Positions 12,868 to 41,918 of a DNA stretch of 42,659 nucleotides are shown piece after piece. The notes beneath the pieces were generated by a model. It did not search any database, had not been told where the DNA came from, and worked only from the letters and a program-made list of their open reading frames with translations. Position 1 is the first letter of the stretch, and each line of letters begins with the position of its first letter. Source of the DNA: a virus. The position numbers and the translations under genes are program-made. The stretch spans positions 1-42,659 of IMG/VR virus record IMGVR_UViG_3300045922_000218; one strand, 5' to 3'.

Positions 12868-12878
12868 CGAGGTAGCCC

Positions 12879-15680
12879 GTGGCGTTCACGTCGCTCGGGA
12901 CCGTCGCTGAGGCCGAGAACAAGACCAGCGCGTCGTCGATTGCGGCGACGTTCAGCAACGCCGTGCCGGTTGGCACGCTGCTTGTGCTGCGGTACGCGGG
13001 CGACAACATCACGACGCCGAACACCAACGACGACACCGGGACGACCGAAATCAGCGGCGTCGCCGACTCGCAATCCAATACGTGGATTCGCGCGCGTGGC
13101 GTGATCCGGGGTGCGGGCACAGCGGCCGCCGGCGTTGTGGGCCACGTGTGGTACTGCGTCGTCACGACGGCGCTCAGCACGAGCGATACCGTCACGGTGA
13201 CCCTCGCGTCGTCTCGCACGGCGAAGGCCGTGCATGTTGAGGCGTACAGTTTCGGCGGCAGGACGATTAGCGTCGCCATCGCCAACGGCGCCAACGGCGC
13301 GAGCACGACGCCGAGTGTCGCGAGCGGCACGGCCGACGCAGCCAGATCGGGACGGCTCTGGATCGGGCACACCGCCTACGAGCGGCCCACCAGCGACACC
13401 GACCCGACACGCGGAGAGGACTGGGACGCCGCGCCCGCGGAATACGGGACGACCGGCGGCACGGCCAACACGAATGTCCTGATCGCCGGTGGTCGGCACA
13501 TCACCACGGCCACGTCGCGCACATGGGCGAGCACGCACCCCACGTCGAGCGACTGGGCCGCGATCGTCGTGGCGTTCGACGAGGCCTCGCTCGGCGCGTC
13601 GGTCACGGCGTCGGCGTCCGTCACGGCTGACCTGACGGTCCCGCCGCCGCCCACGCCCATCCTGTCTCTCGGCACAACGCGCCCCGTCGCTCGCCGGCAT
13701 CGTCCGATTGCGCGCCGGGTGCGGTCGCTGGTGTTCGGGCCGCTGCTGGTCGGGCTGTCCGCGCCCGAGGGGATCGCGCTCGCGGCCGATGTGACCGCCA
13801 CGGCGACGGCCAGCGCCTCGCTGACCGTGCCCAAGCCCCTCGCCGCCGAGGGGACCGGGACGGCGACGGCGACCGCCACCCTCCAGGGCGCGTCGGCCGC
13901 GCTCGAGGCGGCGGGGTCAGGCGTGGCGACGGGCGCGGGGGCGCTGACCGTCCCGAAGCCGCTCGAGGCGTCGGTCGCCGCGTCGGCCATCAGCACGGCG
14001 TCCCTCGTCGTCGCACGGCCGCTCGACGGGGCGCTGACCGCCACGGGAACGGCCACGGCAGCCCTGAGCGTGCCCAAGCCGCTGGACGCCGCCGTCACGG
14101 CCACGGCGAGCAGCACGGCGTCTCTGGCAGGCACGTCCGCCCCGCTGGACACCAGCGTCACGGCGACGGCCACCGTTGCGGGCGATCTGGTCGTCGCGAA
14201 GCCGCTCGGAGCGGCCGCGTCGGCCGTGGCCACCACGACCGGCGCCCTCACCGTCCCGAAGCCGCTCGCGGCCGCCGTCACCGCGTTGGCGACCACAACC
14301 GGGGCACTGGAAGATCCGGCGCCGATTGCCGTGGTGGGGCGCGGCACGCTGCGTCCGGTGCGACACCGCACGCCGGCGGTCCCGATCCGGGGCGGGGTGC
14401 AGTTGCTCGTTGGGCGCAAGATGCCGCAGGCGGCTGCTCTCGCCGCCGGGGTAACCGCCACGGCGAGCGTCAGTGCCACGCTGACGACCCCCAACCTACT
14501 CGCGGCAAGCGCGACGGCCACCGCGTCGGCCACTGCGGCCCTCGTGGTCGCGAAGCCGCTCGCGGCCGCCGTGACGGCCACGGCGTCGGTCGCGGGTGTC
14601 CTCGCCAACCCGGACGCGGCGCTTGTCGCGTCCCGTGGCGTGCTGCGTCCGGTGCGAACGCGGCGCCTCCCGGCCCCGGTGCGTGGCGGGCCGCAGTTCG
14701 TGGTCGGCCGCGAGATCGTGGCGGCCGAGTCGGCAGCGCTCGCGGGTGGCCTTACGGCGACCGCCACGACCACGACAACGCTCACGGTGCCCAAGCCGCT
14801 CGCTGCGGCCGTCTCCGGTATTGGCAATACTGAGGGCGCCCTCACCGTCCCGAAGCCGCTGACGGGGCTCCTGAGCGCCACGGCGGGTGTTTCCGGGGCT
14901 CTCGGCGGGGCCAGTCAAGGGCTTGAGGGGACGGCGGTAGTCACGGCCAGCGCAGCCGGGCTATTGCGGGGAACGGCACAGGCGCTCGCGGCTGCGGTCG
15001 GCGCCAACGCGACCGTGGTGGCCGCGATCCGCAGCTCCACGCCCGCCCTCGTCGCGTCGGTTCTCGCCGAGACGTTCGCCGAAGCGTTCCTGGTGGGCAC
15101 GGGCGCTCCCTTGGCGGGCGGGGTCGCGGGGTCGGCGACAGTCGGCGGTGCGCTGTCGGCCTCGGCGGTGCCGCTGGCAGGCGTGGCGGCAGGGACGGCG
15201 CAGGTTGCTGGCACGCTGCGGGGCGCGTCGCAGGGGTTGGAGGTGGCGGCGCTGGCGACAGCGGACGCGACGGGCGCGCTCGTGGTGGCGAAGCCGCTGA
15301 TCGGCGCGGCGAGCGGGTCCGCCACGATGGACGGCGGGCTGCGCGGCGGTGCGGCGGTGTTGCTGGGGAGCGCGGTCGGCGCGGCGGCGGCCGCCGGTGT
15401 CTTGCGGGCCTCCGAGATCCCGCTGGCCGGCGCGGTCGCCGGCTTGGCGGCGGTCACTGGCACGATCCGCGGCGCAGCGGCGGTCCTTGGCGGCGGCGCG
15501 ATTGGGGCGGCGGTGGTGGCCGGCCTCGTGCGTGGCTCGGCGGCGGTCTTGGCCGGTTCCGCGACGGGTCGCGCGGCAGTGGCGGCAACGCTCCGGCGGC
15601 AGCAACTTGCGGTGGGTCGTGTGGCCACCGTCGTGCGCGACCAGTCGCGCCCATCCCCAAGCGTGAGGAAGAAGCGGTGA
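12879..15680 (+). CDS. Giant Ala/Thr/Val repeat virion protein
   Basis: The 933-residue protein starts with GTG. Residues 1 to about 240 form an ordinary beta-rich domain ending 'SDWAAIVVAFDEASLG'. The rest is built from more than 20 imperfect units of about 20 residues of the type LTVPKPLAAAVTATASTTGA, with Leu at positions 1 and 7 and small residues elsewhere, suggesting a beta-solenoid or fibrous stalk. Three Arg-rich modules of about 35 residues interrupt it near 258-295, 480-517 and 578-617. A basic tail ends the protein. The stop overlaps the connector start. A long fibre or whisker is a reasonable guess. Confidence 0.65.
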   Translation: MAFTSLGTVAEAENKTSASSIAATFSNAVPVGTLLVLRYAGDNITTPNTNDDTGTTEISGVADSQSNTWIRARGVIRGAGTAAAGVVGHVWYCVVTTALSTSDTVTVTLASSRTAKAVHVEAYSFGGRTISVAIANGANGASTTPSVASGTADAARSGRLWIGHTAYERPTSDTDPTRGEDWDAAPAEYGTTGGTANTNVLIAGGRHITTATSRTWASTHPTSSDWAAIVVAFDEASLGASVTASASVTADLTVPPPPTPILSLGTTRPVARRHRPIARRVRSLVFGPLLVGLSAPEGIALAADVTATATASASLTVPKPLAAEGTGTATATATLQGASAALEAAGSGVATGAGALTVPKPLEASVAASAISTASLVVARPLDGALTATGTATAALSVPKPLDAAVTATASSTASLAGTSAPLDTSVTATATVAGDLVVAKPLGAAASAVATTTGALTVPKPLAAAVTALATTTGALEDPAPIAVVGRGTLRPVRHRTPAVPIRGGVQLLVGRKMPQAAALAAGVTATASVSATLTTPNLLAASATATASATAALVVAKPLAAAVTATASVAGVLANPDAALVASRGVLRPVRTRRLPAPVRGGPQFVVGREIVAAESAALAGGLTATATTTTTLTVPKPLAAAVSGIGNTEGALTVPKPLTGLLSATAGVSGALGGASQGLEGTAVVTASAAGLLRGTAQALAAAVGANATVVAAIRSSTPALVASVLAETFAEAFLVGTGAPLAGGVAGSATVGGALSASAVPLAGVAAGTAQVAGTLRGASQGLEVAALATADATGALVVAKPLIGAASGSATMDGGLRGGAAVLLGSAVGAAAAAGVLRASEIPLAGAVAGLAAVTGTIRGAAAVLGGGAIGAAVVAGLVRGSAAVLAGSATGRAAVAATLRRQQLAVGRVATVVRDQSRPSPSVRKKR
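13651..13762 (+). repeat. Arg-rich module 1 in repeat protein
   Basis: Encodes the first and most divergent of three related inserts: a hydrophobic start, 'GTTRPVARRHRPIARRVR', then a hydrophobic 'FGPLLVGL'. It interrupts the 20-residue repeat array. Confidence 0.55.
14317..14427 (+). repeat. Arg-rich module 2 in repeat protein
   Basis: Encodes 'GRGTLRPVRHRTPAVPIRGG' followed by 'VQLLVGRKMP'. It shares the order RG-LRPVR, basic stretch, P-RGG and LVVGR with module 3. Confidence 0.65.
14611..14727 (+). repeat. Arg-rich module 3 in repeat protein
   Basis: Encodes 'SRGVLRPVRTRRLPAPVRGG' followed by 'PQFVVGREIV'. It is clearly homologous to module 2 at about 300 bases distance, so the array seems to have grown by duplicating blocks of repeats plus module. 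Confidence 0.65.
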
Positions 15681-18985: not shown

Positions 18986-19254
18986 ACCTGCGCGACGTAC
19001 TGGTGGCGCTCTGGTGCTTGCAGGACGAAGATCGGCGCGACGAGCTGCGGCGTGAGGGCGACCGGCTCCGGGGCGCGGTCTTGGCGAACTTGGCGTTCCA
19101 CGACGGCAAGGCGCTGGAGCGGGAGATGCGGAAGTACGATCGGGCGCTTGCCACGCCGGTTGGCGGTGGCGCGGCAGTGGACGACCCGGTGATCCGGCGG
19201 GCGCTGTCCGATGCCTTGACTCAGCTTCGTGATACAGGGAGGCGGCGCGCGTGA
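18533..19254 (+). CDS. Tail assembly chaperone, frameshifted (GT-like) product
   Basis: Slipping by -1 on GGGAAAC joins the first 116 codons to an open frame from 18880 to the stop at 19252-19254, giving about 240 residues. The added part contains 'VTRYAQAFGQSWGAVYREVD' and 'ALWCLQDEDRRDELRREGD', a helical domain like the T part of lambda gpGT. It has no start codon placed for separate translation. The stop overlaps the tape measure GTG start, the conserved arrangement G-GT-tape measure. The coordinates span the join; the reading frame changes at the slip site. Confidence 0.8.
18874..18880 (+). promoter_or_regulatory. Programmed -1 ribosomal frameshift site GGGAAAC
   Basis: The heptamer fits X XXY YYZ in the zero frame (G GGA AAC), so both tRNAs can re-pair after slipping one base back. 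Phage lambda uses the related GGGAAAG at the same place in its G-T genes. The next 30 bases are very GC-rich with partly complementary runs (around 18888-18912) that could form a stimulatory hairpin, although no perfect stem is evident. Confidence 0.85.
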
Positions 19255-22200
19255 TTAACCTCGGTGACCTGATGCTGGCCGTCGAGGTGGATGCGGTCGG
19301 CAGTATCAAGGCAATCCGATCCATCCAGAAGGCCGCGCGTACCGCTGCCCAGCAGCAGCAGCGCGACCAAGAGCAGCTTGCGCGGTTCTACGCGCGGCTG
19401 TTCGGAGAGCGGGTTGCCGGTGAGCGTCAGGCCGGCTCCGTGCAGCGCGCCGAGGCGCGGTTCTTGGCGCGGCTCCGAGAGCAAGAGCGCCGGGCGTACA
19501 TCGAGGGCGCGCGGCGGGCGGCGAACGCTGAGGCCGGCTACAACCGCCGGAACGCCGAATGGTGGGTGAACTACCGCCGCCGTCGTCAGGCGTTATTGCG
19601 CGCCGAGACCGCCGCCTACGTGCAGGACGCACGGTTGCGGTCGGCTGCCGATCGGGCCAACGCCGAGTGGTGGATGAGCCACTACCGGCGGCGCCGCGCG
19701 ATGGAGCGCGCCGAGACTGCTGCGTACGTGCAGGACGCACGGCTGCGGTCGGCCGCCGATCGGGCCAACGCCGAGTGGTGGATGAGCCACTACCGGCGGC
19801 GCCGCGCGATGGAGCGCGCCGAGACTGCTGCGTACGTGCAGGACGCACGGCTGCGGTCGGCCGCCGATCGGGCCAACGCCGAGTGGTGGATGAGCCACTA
19901 CCGGCGGCGCCGCGCGATGGAGCGCGCCGAGACCGCCGCGTACGTGCAGGACGCACGGCTGCGCGCCGCCGCCGACCGTCAAGCGGCTGCCGTGGCCGCT
20001 GCCGCGCAGCGTGCCTCGCGCGCTCGGGTCACGGGGGCCGCAATGGCGCTGCGCGGCGGGTCCGGCCTCTCGACGGTCGGCATTACATCAACGGTCGCGG
20101 GTACGTTCGCGGCGCGCGGGCTCCTGCGCGCGATCGACGACGTGCAGGTCATGCGCCAGCGGCTTGCCCAGGTGATCGAGACGGCAGGCGACGCGCGGGT
20201 CGTCATGGACGAACTGACGGCGAGCGCCAGCCGCCTGCGCGTGCCGGTCGGCGATGCGACGGAGCTGTTCGTCAAGCTCCGGCAGTCGAACGGGCAGCTT
20301 GGCCTGTCGATGGGCGAGACGCTGACGGTCACCAATGCGTTTGCGGCAGCACTCCGCATCTCTGGCGCACAGGGGCAAACGGCCGCGTCGGCGCTGCTCC
20401 AGTTCGGGCAGGCGATGGCGAAGGGCAAACTGGACGGCGACGAGTTCCGGACGGTCGCGGAAAATGCGTCCGAGGTGCTCCGCGTCATGGAGCGCCAGAC
20501 GGGCCTGACGCGCGGCGAGCTGCTGAAGATGCGCGAGGCGGGGCAACTGACGGCGAAGATGCTCTCGGACGCCCTGATTGCGGAAGCGAAGACGCTGAAC
20601 GATCGCGTCGCCAAGCTCGCGCCCACCATGACGCAGGCGGCGACGGTGTTCCGCAACTCGATGCTCCAGATGATCGGGAACTCGCGAGACTTGGAGGAGG
20701 CGACGGGAAACGTTGCGCGAAGCATCATCAGCTTCGGCAACACCATCTCCGAGAATAGTCAGACGGTCGCGAACCTCGGCGGGTTGGCGCTCAAGCTCGG
20801 GGCTGCGACCGTCGCCGCGCGTCTCTTGGCGTCTGCCGTGGGAGCGATCGGCACGATCCCGGCCGCGCTGATCGGCGGCGCGGTGCTCCCGTTCGTGGCG
20901 CGCGCCTACGGCGAGGGACAGCGCGCCGACGCGCGCGCGAACCGCATCAAGACGCTCGTCAACGAGGGGAAGCGGGACGAGAAGGCACTGGCGGACTTGA
21001 CCTCCCGGCTGGTCGCGGCGCAGACGCGGTATCGCGCGGCGCAGGACGAGGCCGCGCGCCTCCAGACCTTGCCGGTGGGGCCAGAGCGGAACGCGCTTAT
21101 CGCCCGGTCGAGCGAGATCGCGCGCGAGGCACGGGAAAGCGAGCAGGCATACCGCGAACTCGCCGAGGCGTTGACCTTGGCGTCGCGCGCGCGCGCGGCG
21201 CTCCTTTCCGGAGGATCTGAGGTCACTTCGCCGGCCGGCGACCCAGAGACGATCAAGGACACGACCGACGAGTTCCTGCGTGCGGCGCAGGCATTGGCCG
21301 ATGCGCGGGCGCTGCGCGAGCAGGACTTTGGGCGCCTTCAGCAGATTGCGGCGGCAGAGCGGCGCGTGCTCGAGGAGAACACGGCCAGCACGGAGCGGCT
21401 TGCCACTGCGTACGGGCGCCTGTCGTCGGTGGCGGATGTCATGCGGACGTTCTACAGCGAGAACGAGAAGATTCCCGGCGGTCTCGCGGAGACGACGCGG
21501 CGCGTGGATGTGTTGATCGACCGCTTTGACCTGCTGTTCTCGGTGATGTCCGCGCAGGACGTGCGGGACATCGTGGCCGAGAAGGACCGCCTGACCGAAA
21601 AGCTGCGCGAGCTGGACTTCGCCAGCGAGGAGTACGTGGACACACTGGAGCGGATTCTGGAGATCAGCAATCTGCTCTCCAACGCCGATCCGTTCCGCCT
21701 CGTGTCCGGCGATCGGAACCGAAGGCTCGGCCGGGCCGCGCGCGACATCGAGGACATGGTATCGCAGATGCGGCAGTCCTTGGAAGATGAGATCCTGTCG
21801 ATCCAGATAAACGCGCCGGGCGACCTGTTCACTGCGTTCTTCACGGGACTTGGCGAGCAGTGGGTGCAAGGCGGCACCTCGCTGCGGAATCAGATGCTCG
21901 GCACCATCGGCAATATCTTCATGTCGATGGGCGCGGCGATGGTGAAGTACGGCATCCTCCAGACGAAACTCGCGAAGGCGCTGGTCAACCCGATCACGGC
22001 CGGGCCGGCAGCCATCGCCATCGGCGGGGCGATGGTCGCGCTTGGCGCGGCGTTGTCGTCGGCGTTCCGGAGCGGTGGCCGCGACACCTCCGGATTCGGC
22101 GGGGGCATCGGAGGGCTTGGCGTCGGCGGGGACAGGACGATGGAGTCCGTGTACCGCTTCGATGACCGGCCCTATCAGAGTGGCGGGACGCGCACGGCGA

Positions 22201-22334
22201 GCGGGTCGTCGCCGGTGATCGTGAACGCCACGATCATCGGGCCGAATGACCCGAACGCGCAGCGCCAAATCGCACAGTTGGTGGACAACGCCGCACGGCG
22301 CGGCCTGATGCAAGGCGGAGGGATGCGGACCTGA
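19251..22334 (+). CDS. Tail tape measure protein
   Basis: The 1027-residue protein sets tail length and is the largest tail protein next to the chaperones. Residues 1-120 are a charged coiled-coil region; 119-238 contain 36-residue tandem repeats; 285-475 match the lambda-type tape-measure N-terminal domain, with 'ASALLQFGQAMAKGKLDGDE' and 'GLTRGELLKMREAGQLTAKM'. A hydrophobic Gly/Ala-rich segment near 520-550 and another at about 880-940 could insert in the host membrane. The GTG start overlaps the chaperone stop. Length predicts a tail of ordinary siphovirus size. Confidence 0.92.
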   Translation: MINLGDLMLAVEVDAVGSIKAIRSIQKAARTAAQQQQRDQEQLARFYARLFGERVAGERQAGSVQRAEARFLARLREQERRAYIEGARRAANAEAGYNRRNAEWWVNYRRRRQALLRAETAAYVQDARLRSAADRANAEWWMSHYRRRRAMERAETAAYVQDARLRSAADRANAEWWMSHYRRRRAMERAETAAYVQDARLRSAADRANAEWWMSHYRRRRAMERAETAAYVQDARLRAAADRQAAAVAAAAQRASRARVTGAAMALRGGSGLSTVGITSTVAGTFAARGLLRAIDDVQVMRQRLAQVIETAGDARVVMDELTASASRLRVPVGDATELFVKLRQSNGQLGLSMGETLTVTNAFAAALRISGAQGQTAASALLQFGQAMAKGKLDGDEFRTVAENASEVLRVMERQTGLTRGELLKMREAGQLTAKMLSDALIAEAKTLNDRVAKLAPTMTQAATVFRNSMLQMIGNSRDLEEATGNVARSIISFGNTISENSQTVANLGGLALKLGAATVAARLLASAVGAIGTIPAALIGGAVLPFVARAYGEGQRADARANRIKTLVNEGKRDEKALADLTSRLVAAQTRYRAAQDEAARLQTLPVGPERNALIARSSEIAREARESEQAYRELAEALTLASRARAALLSGGSEVTSPAGDPETIKDTTDEFLRAAQALADARALREQDFGRLQQIAAAERRVLEENTASTERLATAYGRLSSVADVMRTFYSENEKIPGGLAETTRRVDVLIDRFDLLFSVMSAQDVRDIVAEKDRLTEKLRELDFASEEYVDTLERILEISNLLSNADPFRLVSGDRNRRLGRAARDIEDMVSQMRQSLEDEILSIQINAPGDLFTAFFTGLGEQWVQGGTSLRNQMLGTIGNIFMSMGAAMVKYGILQTKLAKALVNPITAGPAAIAIGGAMVALGAALSSAFRSGGRDTSGFGGGIGGLGVGGDRTMESVYRFDDRPYQSGGTRTASGSSPVIVNATIIGPNDPNAQRQIAQLVDNAARRGLMQGGGMRT
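19605..19964 (+). repeat. Near-identical 108-bp tandem repeats in the tape measure gene
   Basis: Units start at 19605, 19713, 19821 and 19929, exactly 108 bases apart; the last is partial. Each encodes 36 residues of the form RAETAAYVQDARLR then 'ANAEWWMSHYRRRRAME'. Units 2 and 3 look almost identical at DNA level, which implies recent duplication. A more diverged half-unit ('NAEWWVNYRRRRQALL') lies just upstream. Confidence 0.9.
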
Positions 22335-29901: not shown

Positions 29902-30317
29902 TGCAGATTCGCGCGGGCGGGGCGGTGTTCGCCGACGATGGGGTATCACTCGGCTTCCTCACGGACCCGGCGATCCGCCCCGTGCGCGGCAGCGGGAACC
30001 TCTGGGAGCTGGCCGACCAGCCGCTCATCTGGCGTCGCACGGACGGTACGCTCGACGTGATTTCGGTCGGCTACCGATGCAACCTGGCGTCGATCCCGAA
30101 GGCGGTGCATGGGCTGGATCACCCGGCCTCGCACTGGCTCATCCGGGGCAGCGTGGTGCATGACTGGCAGTGTGAACACCACGACGAGCGCGGGAGCGAC
30201 GCCGTGCATCGCCAGTGGGGGCAGATGGTCGGGTGGGACGCGGAGACGTGGGTGCAGCGCACGATCAAGCGGCCGACCTACGAGCGCCTCGTCCGCTGGA
30301 TGGGACCGCGCTGGTGA
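29901..30317 (+). CDS. DUF1353 family protein
   Basis: The 138-residue product starts in a TGATG overlap with the endolysin. It has the DUF1353 pattern: a strand-rich first half, 'GYRCNLASIPKAVHGLDHP' and 'IRGSVVHDWQCEHH' with conserved His and Asp, followed by helices. The function of this phage-associated family is unknown; its repeated location beside endolysins suggests a part in lysis or tail-tip work. It is the last gene before the promoter at 30319. Confidence 0.75.
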   Translation: MQIRAGGAVFADDGVSLGFLTDPAIRPVRGSGNLWELADQPLIWRRTDGTLDVISVGYRCNLASIPKAVHGLDHPASHWLIRGSVVHDWQCEHHDERGSDAVHRQWGQMVGWDAETWVQRTIKRPTYERLVRWMGPRW

Positions 30318-30318
30318 C

Positions 30319-30347
30319 TTGACGGGTTGCCTGTCTGGCCGTACACT
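30319..30347 (+). promoter_or_regulatory. Rightward sigma70-like promoter for recombination genes
   Basis: TTGACG (30319-30324) and TACACT (30342-30347) are exactly 17 bases apart. The -10 is part of a small inverted repeat ACAC-T-GTGT (30343-30351), a possible operator. The next gene starts 38 bases downstream behind AGGGAGG. Confidence 0.7.
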
Positions 30348-30385
30348 GTGTGCAGGTATTCCACCTACACACTCAGGGAGGCAGT

Positions 30386-30574
30386 ATGGCCGCAGGTCGT
30401 GTCACGATCTCTGTCCACGTTCCGATGGACAGCTACCAGATCATTCAGAAGGCGATTGAGCGCACGGGGGAGGGGTGGTCGCCGTTCTTCCTGGCCGCCG
30501 CTGAGGAGCGCGCGGCGCGCGTGTTCGCGACGACCGTGGAACCGGAGTCGGCCGGTGCCGCGCCTCAGTCCTGA
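30386..30574 (+). CDS. Small ribbon-helix-helix-like DNA-binding protein
   Basis: The 62-residue product begins with a strand, 'RVTISVHVPMD', followed by two helices, 'YQIIQKAIERTG' and 'WSPFFLAAAEERAARVF'. This is the size and order of an Arc/CopG-type ribbon-helix-helix repressor. It is the first gene behind the promoter at 30319, so autoregulation is plausible. The strong AGGGAGG ribosome site fixes the start. It overlaps the exonuclease gene by 20 bases in another frame. Confidence 0.55.
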   Translation: MAAGRVTISVHVPMDSYQIIQKAIERTGEGWSPFFLAAAEERAARVFATTVEPESAGAAPQS

Positions 30575-31517
30575 CCAGCTCGCCCGGCGCCGCTCGTTCC
30601 TCGGGTCGTCCGACATTGCCGCCATCGCCGGGCTGGACCCCTACCGCAGCGGCCTTGACGTGTGGCTCGAGAAGCGGGGGCTGGCACCGGAGCAGGAGGA
30701 GTCTGAGGCGGCGCTGATGGGGCACCTCTTGGAGCCTGTCGTGGCGCAGCGGTACGCCCTCGCGAACCCGGACGTCGCGCTCCAGCCGGTCGCGCAGGAG
30801 GTGGTGGGACCGGAGCCGTACTTCGCGGCGACGGTGGACTACCTTGCCGCGCAGGACCAGCGCCAGTGGGTCGTAGAAGTCAAGACGCGCAGCAAGTTCA
30901 CGATGCGCGACTGGGGGCCGGCCGGCAGCGATCAGGTGTCGCCGGCCGTGCTGGCTCAAGTGCTCTGGCAGCAGGCGATGACCGGCCTCACGACCATGGC
31001 AGAGGTTGCGGTGCTGGTGGACGGGCGGGAGTTCCGCCTGTACGCGGTGCAGCACGACGCGGCGGTGGTCGCGGACCTCATGGAGATCGGGCGCGACTGG
31101 TGGCAGGCGCACATCATCGAGGGCAGGGAGCCGGCCTTGGACGGGCCGAACGTCGCGGCCTACCTGCGCGAGAAGCACAAGCAGGCGCTCACGAAGGACG
31201 TGCGCGAGGCGGACGAGACGGCGCGCGCGCTGCTGGCGGAGTACGCCCGCATGGACGCGGCGCGCAAGGAGGCCGAGGCCGGGCGCGAGCGCATGAAAGA
31301 GGCGCTGATGCCGGTGATCGGCGACGCCTACGGCATCGAGGCGCCCGGCGTAGGCAAGATGTACTGGCTGAACGTGAAGGGGCGGGCCACGACCGACTGG
31401 CAGGCGATCGCCAAGGAACTCGGCGCACCGGACGAGGTGATTCAGCGCCATACCCGCATCGGTGCCCCGTCGCGCCAGATGCGATTCTATCCAGCCACGG
31501 AGACGACCAATGAGTGA
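30555..31517 (+). CDS. YqaJ-family phage exonuclease
   Basis: The 320-residue protein starts at GTG 30555, which fits an overlap with the upstream gene and the beginning of homology. It degrades one strand of double-stranded ends to supply single strands for annealing. The YqaJ/lambda-exo nuclease core is clear: 'SFLGSSDIAAIAGL', Glu60 in 'GHLLEPVVAQRYA', Asp95 in 'ATVDYL', and Glu108-x-Lys110 in 'VVEVKT'. A charged helical C-terminus follows. It pairs with the RecT gene downstream, which overlaps by eight bases. Confidence 0.9.
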   Translation: MPRLSPDQLARRRSFLGSSDIAAIAGLDPYRSGLDVWLEKRGLAPEQEESEAALMGHLLEPVVAQRYALANPDVALQPVAQEVVGPEPYFAATVDYLAAQDQRQWVVEVKTRSKFTMRDWGPAGSDQVSPAVLAQVLWQQAMTGLTTMAEVAVLVDGREFRLYAVQHDAAVVADLMEIGRDWWQAHIIEGREPALDGPNVAAYLREKHKQALTKDVREADETARALLAEYARMDAARKEAEAGRERMKEALMPVIGDAYGIEAPGVGKMYWLNVKGRATTDWQAIAKELGAPDEVIQRHTRIGAPSRQMRFYPATETTNE

Positions 31518-32439
31518 GCGCACGGCGGTTGCCCCCCGCGTCGAGGCCGCCAAGCCGACGCGCGAGGCGAAGATCCTCGGCCACCTCGCCCCGCTGATGG
31601 GTGGCGACGAAGCGAAGGCACGGAAGATGTATCGCGTGGCCCTCAACGCGATGAGCAAGACGCCCGCGCTCGCGCGCTGCAACGAGGGCAAGTTCTGGCT
31701 GGCCGTTTCCGAGGTCGCCGCCATGAACCTGACGATCGGCGTGCGCGGCGCCTACCTCGTGCCGTACAAGACTGAGGTGCAGGTCATCATCTCGCCGCAC
31801 GGCCTCGTCGAGCTGGCGTTCCGGCATCCGCTCGTGCGGTCGGTGCAGGCGCGCGTGGTGCGGGCTGGCGAAGCGTTCCGCGTCGAGTACGCGCCGGACG
31901 CGGTGGTGCAGCATGAGCCGCGTCTGTCGGGGTCGCCTGGCGATCTGGTGGGCTGCTACGCGATCATCGACCTGGCGACCGGCGGGCGCGTTGTCGAGTA
32001 CATGACGCGCGATGAAGTGCTCGCCATCCGCCAGCGGTCGCAGTCGGCGCGCAAGGGCGAGGGGCCGTGGATCACGGACGAGGCGGAGATGTGGCGCAAG
32101 ACGGTGCTGAAGCGGGCAATGAAGTACGTCCCGCAGTCGGAGGAGATGATGCGCGCGCTCGAGATCGACGACGACGACACCGACCTGTCGGTGGTGCCGG
32201 ACCACGCGCGCTCGTTGGTGGCCGCACCCGTTGAGGACGCGGTGGGGGCGGTGGTGGTCGGCGCGGGGGTGGCTGGGCTGAAGGTGGCGATGGCCGCGCG
32301 CCGGCAGCAGGCGGAGCCCGAGGTGGCAGCGGAGCCCGAGGGAACGCACTCCACCGAGCAGTATCCCGAGGACTATTCGCTGGAGCCGGACGGGACCGAG
32401 GCGGATGACCCGTGGGGTGCGGCGGTGGACGGTCGGTGA
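31510..32439 (+). CDS. recT: RecT-family single-strand annealing protein
   Basis: The 309-residue protein starts at ATG 31510 inside the exonuclease end. The RecT core is recognisable: 'GKFWLAVSEVAAMNLTIG', 'AYLVPYKTEVQVIISPHGLV', 'LVGCYAIIDLATGG' and 'EMWRKTVLKRAMKYVP'. It coats the 3' tails made by the YqaJ nuclease and anneals them to complementary strands, giving the phage its own recombination system. The C-terminal 80 residues are acidic, Pro/Glu-rich and probably unstructured. Confidence 0.92.
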   Translation: MSERTAVAPRVEAAKPTREAKILGHLAPLMGGDEAKARKMYRVALNAMSKTPALARCNEGKFWLAVSEVAAMNLTIGVRGAYLVPYKTEVQVIISPHGLVELAFRHPLVRSVQARVVRAGEAFRVEYAPDAVVQHEPRLSGSPGDLVGCYAIIDLATGGRVVEYMTRDEVLAIRQRSQSARKGEGPWITDEAEMWRKTVLKRAMKYVPQSEEMMRALEIDDDDTDLSVVPDHARSLVAAPVEDAVGAVVVGAGVAGLKVAMAARRQQAEPEVAAEPEGTHSTEQYPEDYSLEPDGTEADDPWGAAVDGR

Positions 32440-33479: not shown

Positions 33480-33533
33480 GGCGACGCGGACGCTCGCGCA
33501 GCACACACCAGCCACGGGGTGCGCCTGCAGTAT

Positions 33534-33553
33534 AGGGCTGGCGCGGGGCTGGC
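33534..33553 (+). repeat. GGGGCTGGC repeat pair, 11-bp period (3' end of leftward operon)
   Basis: GGGCTGGC at 33535 (first G replaced) and GGGGCTGGC at 33545, offset by 11. The pair lies just beyond the stop of the last leftward gene. Confidence 0.6.
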
Positions 33554-33560
33554 GCAAGGT

Positions 33561-33884
33561 TCACTGCGGGAGCCACGGCATCCCCCCGCCCTTCCCCTGC
33601 GGGGGCTGGCTGGCCGCTGGCGGGCCGCTGGCGGGCGCTTGCGCCGTCGGGCTGGCTGCCCCCTTGGCGGGCTGGCGTTTCGGCTTGAGGCGGGCTCTGG
33701 CGGCGGCGCGGCGCTCTTGGGAGACGTTCGCGGTCGGCATCCCGAGCAGTCGCCGTAGCAGGTCGCTGGCGGTCAGGTTCAGCGCGGTGGCGCGCGCGTG
33801 GATCTCGTGTAGCTCGGTGTCGGTCACGCGCAGGTACAGCGCGCGGGTGCGCGGCTGTCCCTGAATTGTTGGCTTGTAGCTCAC
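33561..33884 (-). CDS. Ribbon-helix-helix-like regulator with Pro/Ala tail
   Basis: The last gene of the leftward operon, 107 residues. The GTG start at 33884 is chosen because it overlaps the upstream stop. Residues 15-50 ('RALYLRVTDTELHEIHARAT', 'NLTASDLLRRLLG') fit a strand plus two helices of the CopG/Arc type. The basic linker is followed by a Pro/Ala/Gln-rich tail encoded by GCCAGC-type repeats. A regulatory DNA-binding role is likely; its target may be the repeats or operators in this arm, which is inference. Confidence 0.6.
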   Translation of the reverse strand: MSYKPTIQGQPRTRALYLRVTDTELHEIHARATALNLTASDLLRRLLGMPTANVSQERRAAARARLKPKRQPAKGAASPTAQAPASGPPAASQPPQGKGGGMPWLPQ

Positions 33885-34150
33885 GGGGCTGGCTCTTGGT
33901 TGGGCGGTGGGTCCGGGACGGCACGGTGGTCGCGCACCAAGACGGCGCGCGCCTCGGTCGGCGTGCATCGCATGAGGTCGGCCAGGTGGCCGGCGACCGC
34001 CGCCACGAACGCCTCGGTATCGCGGTGGAGGCGCGCGCGGTATCCGGTGGTGACGATGAGGTCCGCTAGGCGCCGCGCGCGCCGGTCGTCAATGGGCGGA
34101 AGGGGCTGGCGCGGGGCTGGTGAGCGGTTGAGGGCTGGCGGTGGGTTCAT
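33881..34150 (-). CDS. Hypothetical helical protein, 89 aa
   Basis: The ATG start at 34150 overlaps the previous stop as ATGA and its own stop overlaps the next start. The first 20 residues ('MNPPPALNRSPAPRQPLPP') are the translation of the GGGGCTGGC repeat DNA and are probably unstructured. The rest is helical: 'DDRRARRLADLIVTTGY', 'EAFVAAVAGHLADLM'. It resembles small phage proteins of unknown function. Confidence 0.5.
   Translation of the reverse strand: MNPPPALNRSPAPRQPLPPIDDRRARRLADLIVTTGYRARLHRDTEAFVAAVAGHLADLMRCTPTEARAVLVRDHRAVPDPPPNQEPAP
33885..33893 (+). repeat. GGGGCTGGC single repeat at gene junction
   Basis: Single copy directly upstream of the leftward GTG start at 33884, inside the overlapping end of the upstream gene. 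Confidence 0.55.
34102..34139 (+). repeat. GGGGCTGGC repeats at gene junction (11-bp period plus third copy)
   Basis: GGGGCTGGC at 34102, GGGGCTGGT at 34113 and GGGCTGGC at 34132. They sit immediately inside the leftward start at 34150. Confidence 0.65.
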
Positions 34151-34410
34151 GTGCGGCTGCGCCCGTCGCGGTGGATCGCCACGTTCCATTCTCCGGAGAG
34201 GATCGCGCGCGCGGCGCCGTGCGTGGTGTGGTCGAGGAGGTATTCGTAGGCCTCGAGCCCGTTTCGGCACTCGGCCACGGCGACCCCGTCGCGCAGCACG
34301 GTCATGGGGTCCGGGGCTGCCCAGACGCGCGAGAGGGTATCGTAGCAAAGGTCGCGTGCCGTCATCGGCCTGTGGCCGGTGGGCTGGCGCGGGGCTGGCG
34401 GTGGGGTCAT
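34147..34410 (-). CDS. Hypothetical protein, 87 aa
   Basis: The start at 34410 is in an ATGA overlap with the upstream stop. A second ATG at 34365 ('MTARDL') would leave the repeat array untranslated and is a real alternative. The body ('PMTVLRDGVAVAECRNGLEA', 'YLLDHTTHGAARAIL') looks like a small alpha/beta fold. A loosely similar segment ('VTILQDCVVVATVVNAERA') occurs in the gene at 34896-35177, so the two may be distant paralogues. Function unknown. Confidence 0.5.
   Translation of the reverse strand: MTPPPAPRQPTGHRPMTARDLCYDTLSRVWAAPDPMTVLRDGVAVAECRNGLEAYEYLLDHTTHGAARAILSGEWNVAIHRDGRSRT
34380..34399 (+). repeat. GGGGCTGGC repeat pair, 11-bp period, at gene junction
   Basis: GGGCTGGC at 34381 (one base off at 34380) and GGGGCTGGC at 34391. 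They lie between a leftward stop at 34407 and the alternative start at 34365. Confidence 0.65.
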
Positions 34411-34721
34411 GCGTCCCACGGCCCCGACGCGAGCGGTGGGGCCTCGCCAGAGGCGATCGCGTCGTCGGTGGCGTCAGGCGCGTGGATCGACCAGCCGTCG
34501 GGGTTGTCGCACACCTCGAACCCGAGCCGGGCGGCGGCGTCGCACGCGAGGCGACCCACCGACACGCCTTCATACCAGGCGTTGTTGATTGCGTCGGCAA
34601 CCGAGTGCGGCCACTGATCGTCGGTGCCGAGCGGCAGGAGGATGGCGGCGGCGGCGTTCAGGTTGGCGAGGTCGGCGGCGCTATAGCCGGTGGTGTTGTC
34701 GGTCGTGAACAGGGGGGGCAT
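34407..34721 (-). CDS. Hypothetical protein, 104 aa
   Basis: The start at 34721 is preceded by a GGAG site 8-10 bases upstream on the minus strand. Residues 10-30 ('GYSAADLANLNAAAAILLP') and 45-65 ('SVADAINNAWYEGVSVGRLA') are helical. The end is acidic and Ala/Pro-rich. The layout 'DQWPHSVADAINNAW' resembles small phage early proteins whose role is unknown. It ends in an ATGA overlap with the next leftward gene. Confidence 0.55.
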   Translation of the reverse strand: MPPLFTTDNTTGYSAADLANLNAAAAILLPLGTDDQWPHSVADAINNAWYEGVSVGRLACDAAARLGFEVCDNPDGWSIHAPDATDDAIASGEAPPLASGPWDA

Positions 34722-34776
34722 CGTCGGGGTCTCCGGTGGGTGGTGAATCTGTCCGGCACACTGCCGGAGCTGGTGA

Positions 34777-34785
34777 GGGGCTGGC
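34777..34785 (+). repeat. GGGGCTGGC repeat in leftward intergenic gap
   Basis: One full copy here and a shorter GGGCTGGC at 34801, both in the 174-base gap before the leftward gene starting at 34721. The rest of this gap shows no ORF. Confidence 0.55.
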
Positions 34786-34876
34786 CGGGCGCTCGCGCTC
34801 GGGCTGGCGACCGGCTCAGGGGGGACAATACGCTGCCGTGCGCGTCCTGCCAATAGGCAGGGCTGAGGGCTGGTTG

Positions 34877-34885
34877 GGGGCTGGC
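34877..34885 (+). repeat. GGGGCTGGC repeat after leftward gene
   Basis: A full copy 11 bases past the leftward stop at 34896, with a partial GGGCTGG at 34868. Confidence 0.55.
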
Positions 34886-34895
34886 AAGGGGCCGG

Positions 34896-35177
34896 CTACG
34901 GGATCAACCGCTCGAGCCGCTCGCGCTGGGCCTCGCGCTGGCTCAGGACCTGGACCTCGGCCGGCGTGGCGTAGCGCGTGAACCATCCGCCGTAGCGCAG
35001 CGAATAGCTCACCGAGTGCGTGCTACTCGCCGCAATCACGAAAAACGCGCGCTCGGCGTTGACAACCGTGGCGACCACCACACAGTCCTGCAGGATGGTG
35101 ACGGGCCGGCTCAGGTCGGTGAGGTCGGACAGTGAGGGATATGCGTTGCGCGAGGTACGCAGTGTGGGGATCGGCAT
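34896..35177 (-). CDS. Hypothetical protein, 93 aa
   Basis: An ORF between two repeat-bearing gaps. 'VTILQDCVVVATVVNAERAF' and 'SVSYSLRYGGWFTRYATPAE' suggest beta strands, and the end 'SQREAQRERLERLIP' is a charged helix. The start lacks a clear ribosome site, so the N-terminus is unsure. A faint likeness to the product of 34147-34410 is noted. Function unknown. Confidence 0.5.
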   Translation of the reverse strand: MPIPTLRTSRNAYPSLSDLTDLSRPVTILQDCVVVATVVNAERAFFVIAASSTHSVSYSLRYGGWFTRYATPAEVQVLSQREAQRERLERLIP

Positions 35178-35225
35178 CGGAGTCAGTCCGTCGTGGGTGG
35201 GTTGGACTCGTCACTCCCCTAGCCA

Positions 35226-35245
35226 GGGGCTGGCTAGGGGCTGGC
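35226..35245 (+). repeat. GGGGCTGGC repeat pair, 11-bp period, intergenic
   Basis: Exact GGGGCTGGC at 35226 and 35237, separated by TA. They lie in the gap upstream of the leftward start at 35177 and are fully noncoding. Confidence 0.75.
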
Positions 35246-35259
35246 GAGGGGATCGGGTC

Positions 35260-35433
35260 TCATGAGAACGTGCCGAACGGAAACGCCGCTTCCATGATCG
35301 TCTCGAGTTGCCGGAGCCGTGCGGCATCGGTCGGGCTGAGGACGCGCCGGAACCCCAGGCGTTCCTGCAAGGCGAATAACTCACGTGCGACCTCCGCAAG
35401 GTCCTGCGGGTCGCTTGTCTTTTCTGGTGTCAT
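35260..35433 (-). CDS. Small helical protein, 57 aa
   Basis: The ATG at 35433 is preferred to a GTG at 35445 because GGGAG lies at the right distance upstream. The product is two charged helices ('DLAEVARELFALQERLGF', 'DAARLRQLETIMEAAF'). A perfect hairpin lies just upstream of its ribosome site. No family is recognised. Confidence 0.5.
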   Translation of the reverse strand: MTPEKTSDPQDLAEVARELFALQERLGFRRVLSPTDAARLRQLETIMEAAFPFGTFS

Positions 35434-35442
35434 CGTTACTCC

Positions 35443-35466
35443 CACCGCCGGACGTTACCGGCGGTG
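35443..35466 (-). promoter_or_regulatory. Perfect 9-bp hairpin in leftward leader
   Basis: CACCGCCGG (35443-35451) pairs with CCGGCGGTG (35458-35466) around a six-base loop. On the leftward transcript it ends directly before the GGAG site of the gene starting at 35433. It could be a translational control element, a processing site, or a weak terminator. Confidence 0.6.
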
Positions 35467-35481
35467 TTGGTGGGCTGGTGA

Positions 35482-35501
35482 GGGGCTGGCTAGGGGCTGG
35501 C
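35482..35501 (+). repeat. GGGGCTGGC repeat pair, 11-bp period, intergenic
   Basis: Exact copies at 35482 and 35493 with TA between them, the same format as 35226-35245. They lie in the gap between two leftward genes. Confidence 0.75.
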
Positions 35502-35508
35502 CGGGGGA

Positions 35509-35694
35509 TCACTCCCAAGGCCACGGCTCCGGGCGCGAAAGCATTTCCGCTTCACAGTTCCGCATTACCGTCCGGCAACCGTCGGGGCCACCGAATGTGC
35601 CATCGTTGGCCGCAAGGCCGCGACGCGCAATGCGCATCCATTCGACCGTTTCCCAGCGGCGGGCACGCTCGGGGTTGCGTTCCACATTCGTCAT
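35509..35694 (-). CDS. Hypothetical protein, 61 aa
   Basis: The start at 35694 follows a GGAGG site at a good distance on the minus strand, the clearest start in this operon. The product has an Arg/Glu-rich first half ('RARRWETVEWMRIARRG') and ends 'RPEPWPWE'. No known family. It is the second gene behind the leftward promoter. Confidence 0.55.
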   Translation of the reverse strand: MTNVERNPERARRWETVEWMRIARRGLAANDGTFGGPDGCRTVMRNCEAEMLSRPEPWPWE

Positions 35695-35760
35695 CGTTGG
35701 GATCCTCCGTCATGGTTGTGGTCATGGGTAGATACTCCGAGAGAGAGTGGGGGGGGCGAG

Positions 35761-36165
35761 TCAGTTTCCGAGAATGTTCGCACGGCTACGCGCCTCGCGA
35801 TCGCGAAGCAGCTTCGCGGCCGGTCGCTCGTGCCACGCGAGGTCCGCTGAGCCCGGCGCAAGGTGTCCGTCATGGTCGATGGCGACGCACCCGTGAGTGA
35901 TCGCGCCCGACTCGTTGTGCGAGCGATACGGCGCGGAAAGCGGGCGATTGCAGATGCGGCAGAGCGCCCCCCGCCACCAGGCCTCGTGCTCCCACACGCG
36001 CTGCGCCCGCTCGGCGTCGCCGCGCGCCGCCGTCCAGACGGCCAGCGCCTCCTCCAGCGACACACCGCGCGCGTCGCACCACTGCTCGGCGGTGGCGGGC
36101 GTGAGATCGGCGGACAGGCGGGCGAGGTCGGCGTAGGTCGGGGTCGGGGTCGGGGTCGGGGTCAT
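35761..36165 (-). CDS. First gene of leftward operon; Cys/His-containing protein
   Basis: The 134-residue product starts at 36165, behind GGAGA. The first residues 'MTPTPTPTPTY' are encoded by four tandem GGGGTC units. Residues 15-60 are helical ('TYADLARLSADLTPATAEQW'). A CxxC pair in 'LCRICNRPLS', then 'HGCVAIDHDGH', could bind zinc, reminiscent of but shorter than HNH or endonuclease VII motifs; the second half of such motifs is missing. It is the first gene after the strong leftward promoter. Confidence 0.6.
   Translation of the reverse strand: MTPTPTPTPTYADLARLSADLTPATAEQWCDARGVSLEEALAVWTAARGDAERAQRVWEHEAWWRGALCRICNRPLSAPYRSHNESGAITHGCVAIDHDGHLAPGSADLAWHERPAAKLLRDREARSRANILGN
36140..36163 (+). 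repeat. GGGGTC hexanucleotide tandem repeat (4 units)
   Basis: Four perfect units, encoding Thr-Pro repeats directly after the leftward ATG at 36165. Copy number could vary by slippage without changing frame. Confidence 0.8.
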
Positions 36166-36228
36166 GGTCGGTGTCTCCGTGGCTAGTGATGCGTGCCGCC
36201 AGCAGCGTGTCCGCTGGCGTGCAGGGAC

Positions 36229-36257
36229 AATATGTGTATGGCGTGCACACATGTCAA
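36229..36257 (-). promoter_or_regulatory. Leftward promoter with operator-like spacer
   Basis: Read on the minus strand, TTGACA (36257-36252) and CATATT (36234-36229) are 17 bases apart. An inverted repeat, ATGTGT-N9-ACACAT (36232-36252), fills the spacer and overlaps both boxes, so a bound dimer would block polymerase. It drives the eight-gene leftward operon. Confidence 0.72.
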
Positions 36258-36329: not shown

Positions 36330-36363
36330 CGCCACAACGGCAGGCACCGCCACAACGGCAGGC
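36330..36363 (+). repeat. 15-bp direct repeat pair, 18-bp period (origin-like)
   Basis: GCCACAACGGCAGGC occurs at 36331-36345 and 36349-36363. It lies 53 bases before the DnaA-like iterons, as iteron sets often do. Confidence 0.75.
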
Positions 36364-36364
36364 C

Positions 36365-36379
36365 GTGTCAGATCGACAC
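36365..36379. promoter_or_regulatory. Palindrome GTGTC-N5-GACAC, copy 1
   Basis: Perfect five-base arms, spaced by AGATC. The same arms and spacing recur at 37529-37543 next to the rightward promoter, so both may bind one dimeric regulator. Confidence 0.55.
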
Positions 36380-36415: not shown

Positions 36416-36455
36416 CCCGCGCCAGTTTTCCACATTCCCGCGCCAGTTTTCCACA
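36416..36455 (+). repeat. Two 19-bp iterons with DnaA-box-like cores
   Basis: CCCGCGCCAGTTTTCCACA occurs at 36416-36434 and 36437-36455, with a 21-base period (two helical turns). Each ends TTTTCCACA, one base from the DnaA box TTATCCACA. Nearby short repeats such as CGACCGAT (about 36479 and 36512) extend the cluster. This is the strongest origin candidate in the window. Confidence 0.65.
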
Positions 36456-39289: not shown

Positions 39290-39654
39290 CGTCGCGCACC
39301 GCAGGAGACGACCCCATGACCGACACGACACCGGCCGCTGGCTTCGTCCACGACGTGTTTCCCGTGGACCGCTGCGGCGTCTGCGTCGACGCCGGCAACG
39401 GCGGCTGGACCGTGGAGCACCCAGAGCCGCAGCACGACGCGCTCCCCGCCTACGCCGTGCCGATCGCGCTCCTGACGGACCCGCAGTTCGTGGAGGCCGT
39501 CTCGGCCCGCTGGTGGGCGATGGCGCGCGACACGGAGCCGAACGCCGCGAAGATCCCGACCCTGTTCCTGGCCCTCGCCGCCGAGCTCGAGGAGCGCGCC
39601 GCCGACAACGACCGGCGGAACGGGATCGTGCCGCCCGACGAGGACGACGCATGA
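39286..39654 (+). CDS. Hypothetical protein, 122 aa
   Basis: The ATGA-coupled start at 39286 is listed; a second ATG at 39316 ('MTDTTP') has a GGAGA site upstream and may be the real one. 'RCGVCVDAGNGGWTVEHPE' holds a CxxC pair and one His. The rest is helical ('FVEAVSARWWAMARDTEPNA', 'LFLALAAELEERAADNDR'). It directly precedes the helicase-methyltransferase by a four-base overlap. Function unknown. Confidence 0.55.
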   Translation: MTSRTAGDDPMTDTTPAAGFVHDVFPVDRCGVCVDAGNGGWTVEHPEPQHDALPAYAVPIALLTDPQFVEAVSARWWAMARDTEPNAAKIPTLFLALAAELEERAADNDRRNGIVPPDEDDA

Positions 39655-41918
39655 GCGGCGACTATGCGGCGTTTCTGGCGGCCAAGACGCAGCGGATGCC
39701 CGCCCGCGGAATGGCATCAAACGTCGTCGCCCAGTGCCCATTGCCGCCGTCCCTGTTCGCGTGGCAGGATCACATCGTCCGATGGGCACTTCGGCGTGGC
39801 ACGGCCGCCTTGTTTGCCGACACCGGCCTTGGCAAGACGGCCATGCAGCTGGCGTGGGCCGATGCGATCGCCACCTACACCGGCGCGCGCGTGCTCATTC
39901 TGGCGCCGCTGGCGGTCGCCGCGCAGACGGTCGGCGAAGGCAGGCGCATCGGCGTGGCGGCGCGCGTCATCCGCGATGCTAGTGACGTGACCCCGGACTG
40001 TCCGCGCGTTGTCGTCTGCAACTACGATCGCGTGCATCGGCTCGATCTGACCGAGTTCACCGGCGTCGTGCTGGACGAATCGTCCATCCTGAAAAACATG
40101 ATGGGCAAGACGCGCACCGCGCTCATCACCATGTTTCGCGACACGCCGTACCGTCTCGCTTGTACCGCCACGCCGTCCCCGAACGACTTTGACGAGCTCG
40201 GGAACCACGCGGAGTTTCTCGGCGTCACCACGATGTCCGAGATGCTGGCGCGCTACTTCGTGAACGATCTTGGCGATACCGGCACATGGCGACTCAAAGG
40301 ATACGCCGAGTCGGCGTTCTGGACCTGGTGCGCGTCGTGGGCCATCGCCATCCGAACGCCCGCCGACCTGCGCGCGGCAGACGGCACGCCCTACGACGGC
40401 GCACGGTATGTGCTCCCGGCGCTTGACATTCGGCACGAGATCGTCGCCGTCGATCACCTCGCGCGCCAACTGGACACGGGCGAACTGTTCGCCGGGCAGG
40501 CGTTGTCGGCCACCACGCTCCACCGAGAACTGCGCGCCACCGCCACGGATCGCGCGGCCGCCGTCGCGCGGATCGTTCACGCGGAACCTGACGAACCGTG
40601 GATCATCTGGGTCCATACCGACTACGAGGCAGATGCCGTGAAGTCCATCGTGCCCGAAGCGGTCGAGGTGCGCGGCTCGATGACGCCTGACGAGAAGGAA
40701 CGCCGCCTTGTGGACTTCTCCGAGGGACGCACTCGCATCCTGTTGACCAAGCCGTCGATCGCAGGATTCGGCATGAACTGGCAACATTGTGCGCGCATGG
40801 TGTTTGCGGGCCTGTCGTATTCCTACGAAGCACTCTACCAAGCACTGCGTCGCTCATGGCGCTTCGGACAGACGCGCGACGTGGTCGCGTATTTGGTCGC
40901 GGCCGAAAGCGAAGGCGCCGTCCGTGACGCACTCACTGCCAAAGAGGAGCAGCACCGCATGATGCAATCGAAGATGGTGGAAGCCATGCAGCACAGTCAG
41001 GGCCGCGATGACGCCACGGACGCCGTTGCGGAAGGCGGCACGGGCGACACCGCGATCGGCAATGGGTGGACGCTGACCAATGGCGATTGCGTCGAGGTGT
41101 GGCGCTCGATTCCCGATGGCACGATCGACTTCACGATCTACTCGCCGCCGTTCGCCAATCTGTACGTGTACAGCGATGATCCGCGCGACATGGGAAACGT
41201 CACCGACGATGATGCGTTCTTCCGCCATTTCGGCTACCTGCTGCCAGAACTGTTCCGCGCCACGCGACCTGGCCGATTGATGGCGGTCCACGTGTCCCAG
41301 TTGCCATCCTTCAAGTGGAAGCATGGCGTCAGCGGGCTGCGCGACTTTCGCGGCGATGTCATCCGCGCAGCGGAAGCGGCCGGGTGGACCTATCATTCCG
41401 AAGTGTGCATCTGGAAAGACCCCGTGACCGAGATGCAACGCACGAAGTCGCATGGGTTGCTGTACAAGACGATCCAGCGCAACGCCTCATTCTCGCGCGT
41501 TGGGATGCCCGACTATCTCGTCGTGTTTCGCAAGTGGAGCGATGGCGAGGAAACGCCCGTGACGCACACGCCGGATGACTTCCCGCTCGACCTCTGGCAG
41601 CGCGTCGCGTCCCCTGTCTGGTTCGACATTGACCAGACGCGCACGCTCAACGTGCGACAGGCGCGCGACTCGCAGGACGAAAAGCACCTGTGCCCGCTCC
41701 AGCTTGACGTGATCGAGCGGGCTGTGGCGTTGTGGTCAAATCCGGGCGACCTGGTGGCCTCACCATTCACCGGCATTGGGAGCGAAGGTGTAGTCGCGTT
41801 GCAGATGGGACGGCGATTCATCGGAGCCGAGCTTAAGCCGACCTACTGGAAACACGCCTGCCGAAACTTGCGCGATGCGACGGCGCAGGCTGACTTGTTC
41901 GGAGTATCGGCCGCATGA
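39651..41918 (+). CDS. Fused SNF2/DEAD-like helicase and N4/N6 DNA methyltransferase
   Basis: A single 755-residue chain. Residues 30-430 carry superfamily 2 motifs: Q-like 'LFAWQDHIVRWAL', Walker A DTGLGKT (57-63), 'VVLDESS' (DExx, 139-145), 'CTATPSPND' and motif VI 'YQALRRSWRFGQTRDV'. Residues 470-750 carry a beta-class methyltransferase: motif IV 'IYSPPF' (497-501), then the SAM loop motif I 'PFTGIGSEGVVALQ' near 705-717. No nuclease motif is seen. It would modify phage or host DNA while translocating. Third positions are slightly less GC-rich than neighbours, hinting at transfer. Confidence 0.85.
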   Translation: MSGDYAAFLAAKTQRMPARGMASNVVAQCPLPPSLFAWQDHIVRWALRRGTAALFADTGLGKTAMQLAWADAIATYTGARVLILAPLAVAAQTVGEGRRIGVAARVIRDASDVTPDCPRVVVCNYDRVHRLDLTEFTGVVLDESSILKNMMGKTRTALITMFRDTPYRLACTATPSPNDFDELGNHAEFLGVTTMSEMLARYFVNDLGDTGTWRLKGYAESAFWTWCASWAIAIRTPADLRAADGTPYDGARYVLPALDIRHEIVAVDHLARQLDTGELFAGQALSATTLHRELRATATDRAAAVARIVHAEPDEPWIIWVHTDYEADAVKSIVPEAVEVRGSMTPDEKERRLVDFSEGRTRILLTKPSIAGFGMNWQHCARMVFAGLSYSYEALYQALRRSWRFGQTRDVVAYLVAAESEGAVRDALTAKEEQHRMMQSKMVEAMQHSQGRDDATDAVAEGGTGDTAIGNGWTLTNGDCVEVWRSIPDGTIDFTIYSPPFANLYVYSDDPRDMGNVTDDDAFFRHFGYLLPELFRATRPGRLMAVHVSQLPSFKWKHGVSGLRDFRGDVIRAAEAAGWTYHSEVCIWKDPVTEMQRTKSHGLLYKTIQRNASFSRVGMPDYLVVFRKWSDGEETPVTHTPDDFPLDLWQRVASPVWFDIDQTRTLNVRQARDSQDEKHLCPLQLDVIERAVALWSNPGDLVASPFTGIGSEGVVALQMGRRFIGAELKPTYWKHACRNLRDATAQADLFGVSAA

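Follow-up and report, generated by a model that had tools for sequence, protein, structure and literature searches.

A polar bipartite repeat at the gene ends of a small leftward operon in a tailed phage contig

Introduction

Stoperators are short asymmetric repeats that lie between genes and are oriented with transcription, and the protein bound to them contacts two adjacent major grooves (PMC9283540, PMC6550527). The SAS/ESAS elements of cluster K mycobacteriophages comprise a 13-bp asymmetric repeat, found in one orientation at gene junctions and with an inverted repeat near about half of the copies (PMC3203893). In T4-type phages, PeSL cassettes are promoter-stem-loop repeats between small genes, which have been linked to gene shuffling (cited in PMC4503421). 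At the RNA level, Rho sites are C-rich and G-poor with YC dimers 9–13 nt apart (PMC9160355), and have also been described as cytosines every 11–13 nt followed by a pause hairpin (PMC6407284).

Here, we analysed a phage contig of 42,659 bases (the window, i.e., the whole stretch of DNA analysed), in which a sequence-only reading had noticed a repeated 9-mer punctuating a leftward operon.

Results

Organization of the contig

The contig has a G+C content of 69% and belongs to a tailed phage of bacteria. According to a codon-usage gene call, genes A–H form the sole leftward block, and all other genes are rightward, including the following.

Terminase, 2065–4449, rightward
Capsid, 7449–8813, rightward
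Tape measure, 19251–22334, rightward
YqaJ, recombination protein, 30555–31517, rightward
RecT, recombination protein, 31510–32439, rightward
Helicase-methylase fusion, 39651–41918, rightward

In the last of these, a helicase is fused to an N6/N4 methylase; its relatives on viral contigs number in the hundreds, and the best 80 are mostly about 50% identical. A separate 70-aa ORF at 926–1138 matches C5-cytosine methylases over its N-terminal ~55 residues only and is a truncated or frameshifted gene.

The leftward block and its flanking signals are as follows, in the direction of transcription.

Main leftward promoter-like sequence TTGACA-17-CATATT, 36257–36229, minus strand
Operon A–H, 33561–36165, minus strand
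Gene A, 36165–35761, minus strand
Gene B, 35694–35509, minus strand
Gene C, 35433–35260, minus strand
Gene D, 35177–34896, minus strand
Internal promoter-like sequence TTGGCA-17-TATTGT in the D/E gap, 34853–34825, minus strand (9 of 12 consensus matches)
Gene E, 34721–34407, minus strand
Gene F, 34365–34147, minus strand
Gene G, 34150–33881, minus strand
Gene H, the last operon gene, 33884–33561, minus strand
Terminator-like 12-pair hairpin at the operon end, with TGGTGTTT after it, 33474–33445, minus strand

The internal promoter is a consensus match only. The called frames of B–H had the best codon-usage score, as did that of A after a one-base shift of its interval. Among the operon proteins scanned, no domain was recognised except in H, which gave weak ribbon-helix-helix matches (NikA/Arc/CopG-like). 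H is a candidate ligand of the repeated site described below, the only one encoded inside the operon. The structure of protein E was of too low a quality for use.

A 21-bp-spaced direct repeat at 36416–36455, just ahead of the leftward promoter, contains two perfect DnaA boxes (TTTTCCACA), and this region is a candidate replication origin. An 18-bp tandem repeat (CGCCACAACGGCAGGCAC / CGCCACAACGGCAGGCCG) is located close to it at 36330–36365. By eye, a TGTGTGCA...ACACA-like palindromic sequence was seen at 36257–36229 and again at about 30310–30380, which is promoter-like and precedes the small gene at 30386, YqaJ, and RecT. This palindrome may be an operator common to both promoter regions.

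Copy number, strand, and period of the repeat

The 9-mer, GGGGCTGGC, occurs 16 times in the window, against 0.87 expected and a maximum of 4 in shuffles; 14 of the 16 copies are in the plus orientation, and 11 of those 14 lie inside 33545–35501. Its core, CCAGCCC (GGGCTGG on the plus strand), was found 20 times on the leftward strand of 33530–36180, where 2000 dinucleotide shuffles of the same strand averaged 0.90 and never gave more than 5, and not once on the opposite strand of that interval. The punctuation of the leftward operon by a repeat is thus real. The positions first assigned to the copies were mostly right, except that those at 33535, 34113, 34132, 34381, and 34801 are 8-base or one-mismatch copies, and that copies at 34867 and 35472 had been missed. 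The 11-bp period was also borne out, since 7 of 13 CCAGCC pairs no more than 40 nt apart are spaced by exactly 11 nt, but the initial count of five sets is corrected to seven 11-nt pairs and one triple, at the B/C junction. No copy was found at the A/B junction.

One-mismatch cores are not in excess in the operon (10, against 10.1 expected from the same strand in the rest of the window), and the spacers between conserved blocks vary freely while the cores stay exact. The missing surplus of inexact cores, together with the variable spacers, points to a sequence-specific function rather than to decaying duplications or a loosely C-rich Rho site.

The repeat as part of a bipartite site

Although the 9-mer itself is present, it turned out to be merely part of a longer site, TGANCC-N4-G-CCAGCCC(C), often followed by extra CCAGCCC units at 11-nt steps. 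In an alignment of nine arrays, a second conserved block lies exactly 11 nt upstream of the first core (T 7/9, A 9/9, CC 9/9). This six-column upstream conservation was reached in none of 5000 sets of random operon flanks and in none of 5000 sets of flanks given four real stops at that offset. When at most one mismatch was allowed, the whole site matched eight times against 0.37 expected, always leftward and in the operon. In a leave-one-out analysis, each held-out copy ranked in the top 10 of about 85,000 positions (contig, both strands). A 19-bp profile built from eight copies detected no comparable site elsewhere in the 42.7-kb contig, the main leftward promoter-like sequence at 36257–36229 included. 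The bipartite consensus was defined post hoc, and the resampling tests address this within the window alone. In total, about nine sites are present on this contig, which may be incomplete, all of them in 33535–35511 and in one orientation. The repeats are copies of one asymmetric, bipartite, sequence-specific cis site. The individual elements are as follows.

Element 1, 35472–35511, minus strand: TGATCCCCCGGCCAGCCC and two CCAGCCC cores at 11-nt steps; at the end of B, with TGA as the B stop
Element 2, 35227–35255, minus strand: CGATCCCCTCGCCAGCCC and one core at +11; just after C
Element 3, 34867–34906, minus strand: TGATCCCGTAGCCGGCCC and two cores; across the end of D
Element 4, 34767–34818, minus strand: TGAGCCGGTCGCCAGCCC, with one core at +23 and another, with one mismatch, after a further 11 nt; within the long D/E gap
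Element 5, 34381–34409, minus strand: TGACCCCACCGCCAGCCC and one core at +11; TGA is the E stop
Element 6, 34132–34149, minus strand: TGAACCCACCGCCAGCCC; TGA is the F stop
Element 7, 34103–34131, minus strand: TCAACCGCTCACCAGCCC and one core at +11; within the N-terminal coding sequence of G
Weaker G/H element, 33886–33903, minus strand: CCAACCAAGAGCCAGCCC, with CCAACC; just before the G stop
Element 8, 33535–33563, minus strand: TGAACCTTGCGCCAGCCC and one core at +11; TGA is the H stop

Three further cores in gene H (33603, 33649, and 33669 on the plus strand) are probably coincidental, because they have no second half-site and lie inside a Pro/Ala-rich coding tail. Element 2, at the C/D junction, contains an 11-bp hairpin (CCCCTAGCCAG-CCC-CTGGCTAGGGG; fold z −3.6). 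The other junction folds were unremarkable (z −0.05 to −2.0), and conserved hairpins at the junctions were therefore rejected as the common feature, only C/D standing out. No called gene ends at element 4, which coincides with the expected transcription start of the promoter-like sequence at 34853–34825, an operator-like position.

Placement at gene ends

The association with gene junctions held in a more specific form: seven of the eight genes (B–H) have a copy next to or spanning their ends. Of ten core clusters, seven fall within −10 to +20 nt of a gene stop, a number that none of 20,000 random placements reached. Genes B, E, F, and H use the TGA of the site as their stop codon at a common 11-nt offset, which was likewise absent from all 20,000 random placements. 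In elements 2, 3, 4, and 7, TGANCC or a close variant of it is retained although it has no stop role: in element 3 the TGA is out of frame and the D stop is a TAG in the spacer, and the gene C element has CGA in place of TGA. Since it is kept where it does not serve as a stop, TGANCC seems to belong to the site; the motif would thus not be due to the stop codons, the genes having instead come to end within it.

At the F/G junction, the TGA of element 6 overlaps the G start as ATGA, so that the element is translated as the N-terminus of G, and the 18-nt spacing there arises from elements 6 and 7 standing back to back. The G stop and the GTG start of H overlap likewise, as GTGA. The cores inside G fall in two reading frames (CCA GCC C and C CAG CCC), which agrees with the proposal that selection acts on DNA or RNA and not on protein; a protein-level repeat was rejected for the same difference in frame. 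The distance from the site to the next gene start varies. None of the predicted rightward gene ends carries the site, and the initial observation is thus not refuted by an equal density in other gene blocks. The 3' end of 16S rRNA is GGCUGGAUCACCUCC; pairing with it would leave the invariant seventh C as well as the preceding G unpaired, and was therefore rejected.

Relatives and wider searches

Collection searches with RecT, terminase, the helicase-methylase, the concatenated operon proteins, and portal found no genome with this operon, and neither did tblastn/blastn against phages; the collection scans with single proteins are sensitive to close relatives only. For genes A, B, D, E, and F, neither the collection scan nor the phage searches gave any relative. 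In G001/L048, the closest relative as judged by helicase (76%) and capsid (50%), there was no operon-protein match and no good copy of the site.

Viral contigs with three CCAGCCC units at 11-nt steps numbered 16, whereas the reversed control gave 50 and a 12-nt spacing at least 120. Being scarcer than both controls, the array is not a common viral motif, and the viral-contig arrays inspected look like local minisatellites, repeats within genes, or chance occurrences. In bacterial genomes, 18 scattered single matches were obtained. Rfam gave no convincing match, the one sub-threshold match lying inside gene G only. Dispersed k-mers were also surveyed in 331 loci, a non-random sample, and the top-ranked others inspected were mostly in-gene or local satellites. 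On an unrelated viral contig (L138), a palindrome, TGATATCA, is dispersed in 12 copies over 11148–13952 (reverse strand).

Discussion

Comparison with described systems

The stoperators of cluster A phages (L5, Bxb1, TipsytheTRex), suggested earlier as a parallel, resemble the present site as asymmetric repeats in one orientation, all copies here being leftward, and in their intergenic placement. Cluster A phages carry 20–30 sites genome-wide, whereas about nine are present here in one operon of about 2 kb, on a contig that may be incomplete. Their operator lies at the early promoter; here, the main promoter has no copy, and one is found only at the internal promoter-like sequence, which is weaker. 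The present site also differs in being bipartite (18–19 bp) with extra 11-nt units and in being anchored on gene ends. Its sequence was judged unrelated to that of the L5 stoperator. The cluster A system further includes a repressor with HTH and stoperator domains and an orientation-dependent block of elongation. No repressor-like Pfam match was obtained among the non-structural proteins scanned, an ORF subset in which a divergent repressor could escape detection. A weak HTH match was seen in 1371–2075, the ORF just before the large terminase gene. Because the site occurs in one operon only and is absent from the main promoter, and because no repressor was recognised among the proteins scanned, its membership in the stoperator family is not supported at present.

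Two other parallels raised at the outset did not survive. Start-associated sequences lie immediately upstream of gene starts, whereas the anchor here is the gene 3' end, and the SAS consensus GGGATAGGAGCCC is unrelated to TGANCC-N4-G-CCAGCCC. A Chi-like site was rejected since the copies are clustered, being confined to about 2 kb. As compared with PeSL cassettes, promoter-like sequence is found at one junction only and a clear hairpin at some junctions only.

Possible roles of the site

The reading that we prefer, tentatively and at somewhat less than an even chance, is that the repeats are polar binding sites of a stoperator-like kind, through which leftward transcription is affected at gene ends. 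This preference is based on the polar bipartite site, its single orientation at gene ends, its likeness to stoperators, and the operator position of element 4. A phage or host factor would bind the sites, most simply on DNA, where half-sites one helical turn apart would present the same face. The bound factor would slow or stop leftward transcription where the genes end, in the manner of the cluster A stoperators, and the small operon might be kept silent or graded gene by gene. Binding, an action on DNA rather than RNA, and an effect on elongation are what we infer from the arrangement of the site. Several points weigh on the other side. The site is missing from the main leftward promoter and from the rightward operons; anchoring on stop codons would also suit an RNA-level or a cassette role; the internal promoter is a consensus match only; and no repressor was recognised among the proteins scanned, the ribbon-helix-helix candidate H aside.

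A single site for each gene end, which provides the stop codon or overlaps with it, would also be expected if the site were a cassette border, that is, a 3' seam for the gain, loss, and shuffling of operon genes by RecT-type annealing or a site-specific recombinase. Neighbouring copies are indeed the most alike, with CTAG as the spacer in B and C, and CGCG in E, H, and the second F/G copy; a copy standing by itself is found in the D/E gap, which is unusually long; both YqaJ and RecT are encoded by the phage; and the searches made yielded no relatives of A, B, D, E, and F. Exact cores with variable spacers, however, offer poor homology for annealing, and rearranged genes were seen in no second genome. 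In integrons, the attC site follows the stop codon of each small cassette gene in the same orientation, but the GTTRRRY integron core is absent from the leftward strand of the operon, and the non-structural proteins that were scanned included no recognisable integrase or recombinase. We regard a cassette border as possible but rather unlikely. The likeness between neighbouring copies would also fit a short repeat that spreads neutrally or selfishly and persists at gene ends only because they tolerate it, as would the varying number of tandem units and the local 11-nt CCAGCCC minisatellites of unrelated phages. Against such spread stand the lack of excess decayed cores despite diverged spacers, the strict orientation, the 11-nt stop offset fixed in four genes, and the acceptance of copies within the coding sequence of G, and it appears somewhat less likely still.

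We consider least probable a Rho-type or other RNA 3'-end signal, in which Rho, or another RNA-binding protein, would be loaded at the C-rich units and transcription would be terminated or attenuated. The site does resemble rut sites in its C-richness and in its 11-nt spacing just after stop codons, and the site-bearing junctions show a C-over-G excess of 16–39% against the leftward-strand mean of 4%. A rut site would need a composition, a stretch of about 70–80 nt with C over G and regularly spaced C, and the junction excess is moderate, with equally strong C-rich stretches in gene bodies and elsewhere on the leftward strand. Exact conservation of the heptamer and TGANCC is not a described property of such sites. 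Unstructured RNA before a pause hairpin would also be expected, and the C/D hairpin would serve as such, but folding is clear only there, and Rfam lent no convincing match.

Implications

The phage junction sites compared here are otherwise start-associated or genome-wide repressor stop sites. It is conceivable, if doubtful, that the polar site of 11-nt units across stop codons represents a new class of phage gene-end element, in which each gene would have its own 3' control site or cassette border, read by a dedicated phage factor. If such a confined gene-end site is true, it would mean gene-by-gene control, or shuffling, of a small operon of uncharacterised genes, one that adjoins the candidate replication origin. 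A defined 19-bp probe is now available for finding the factor that reads the site.
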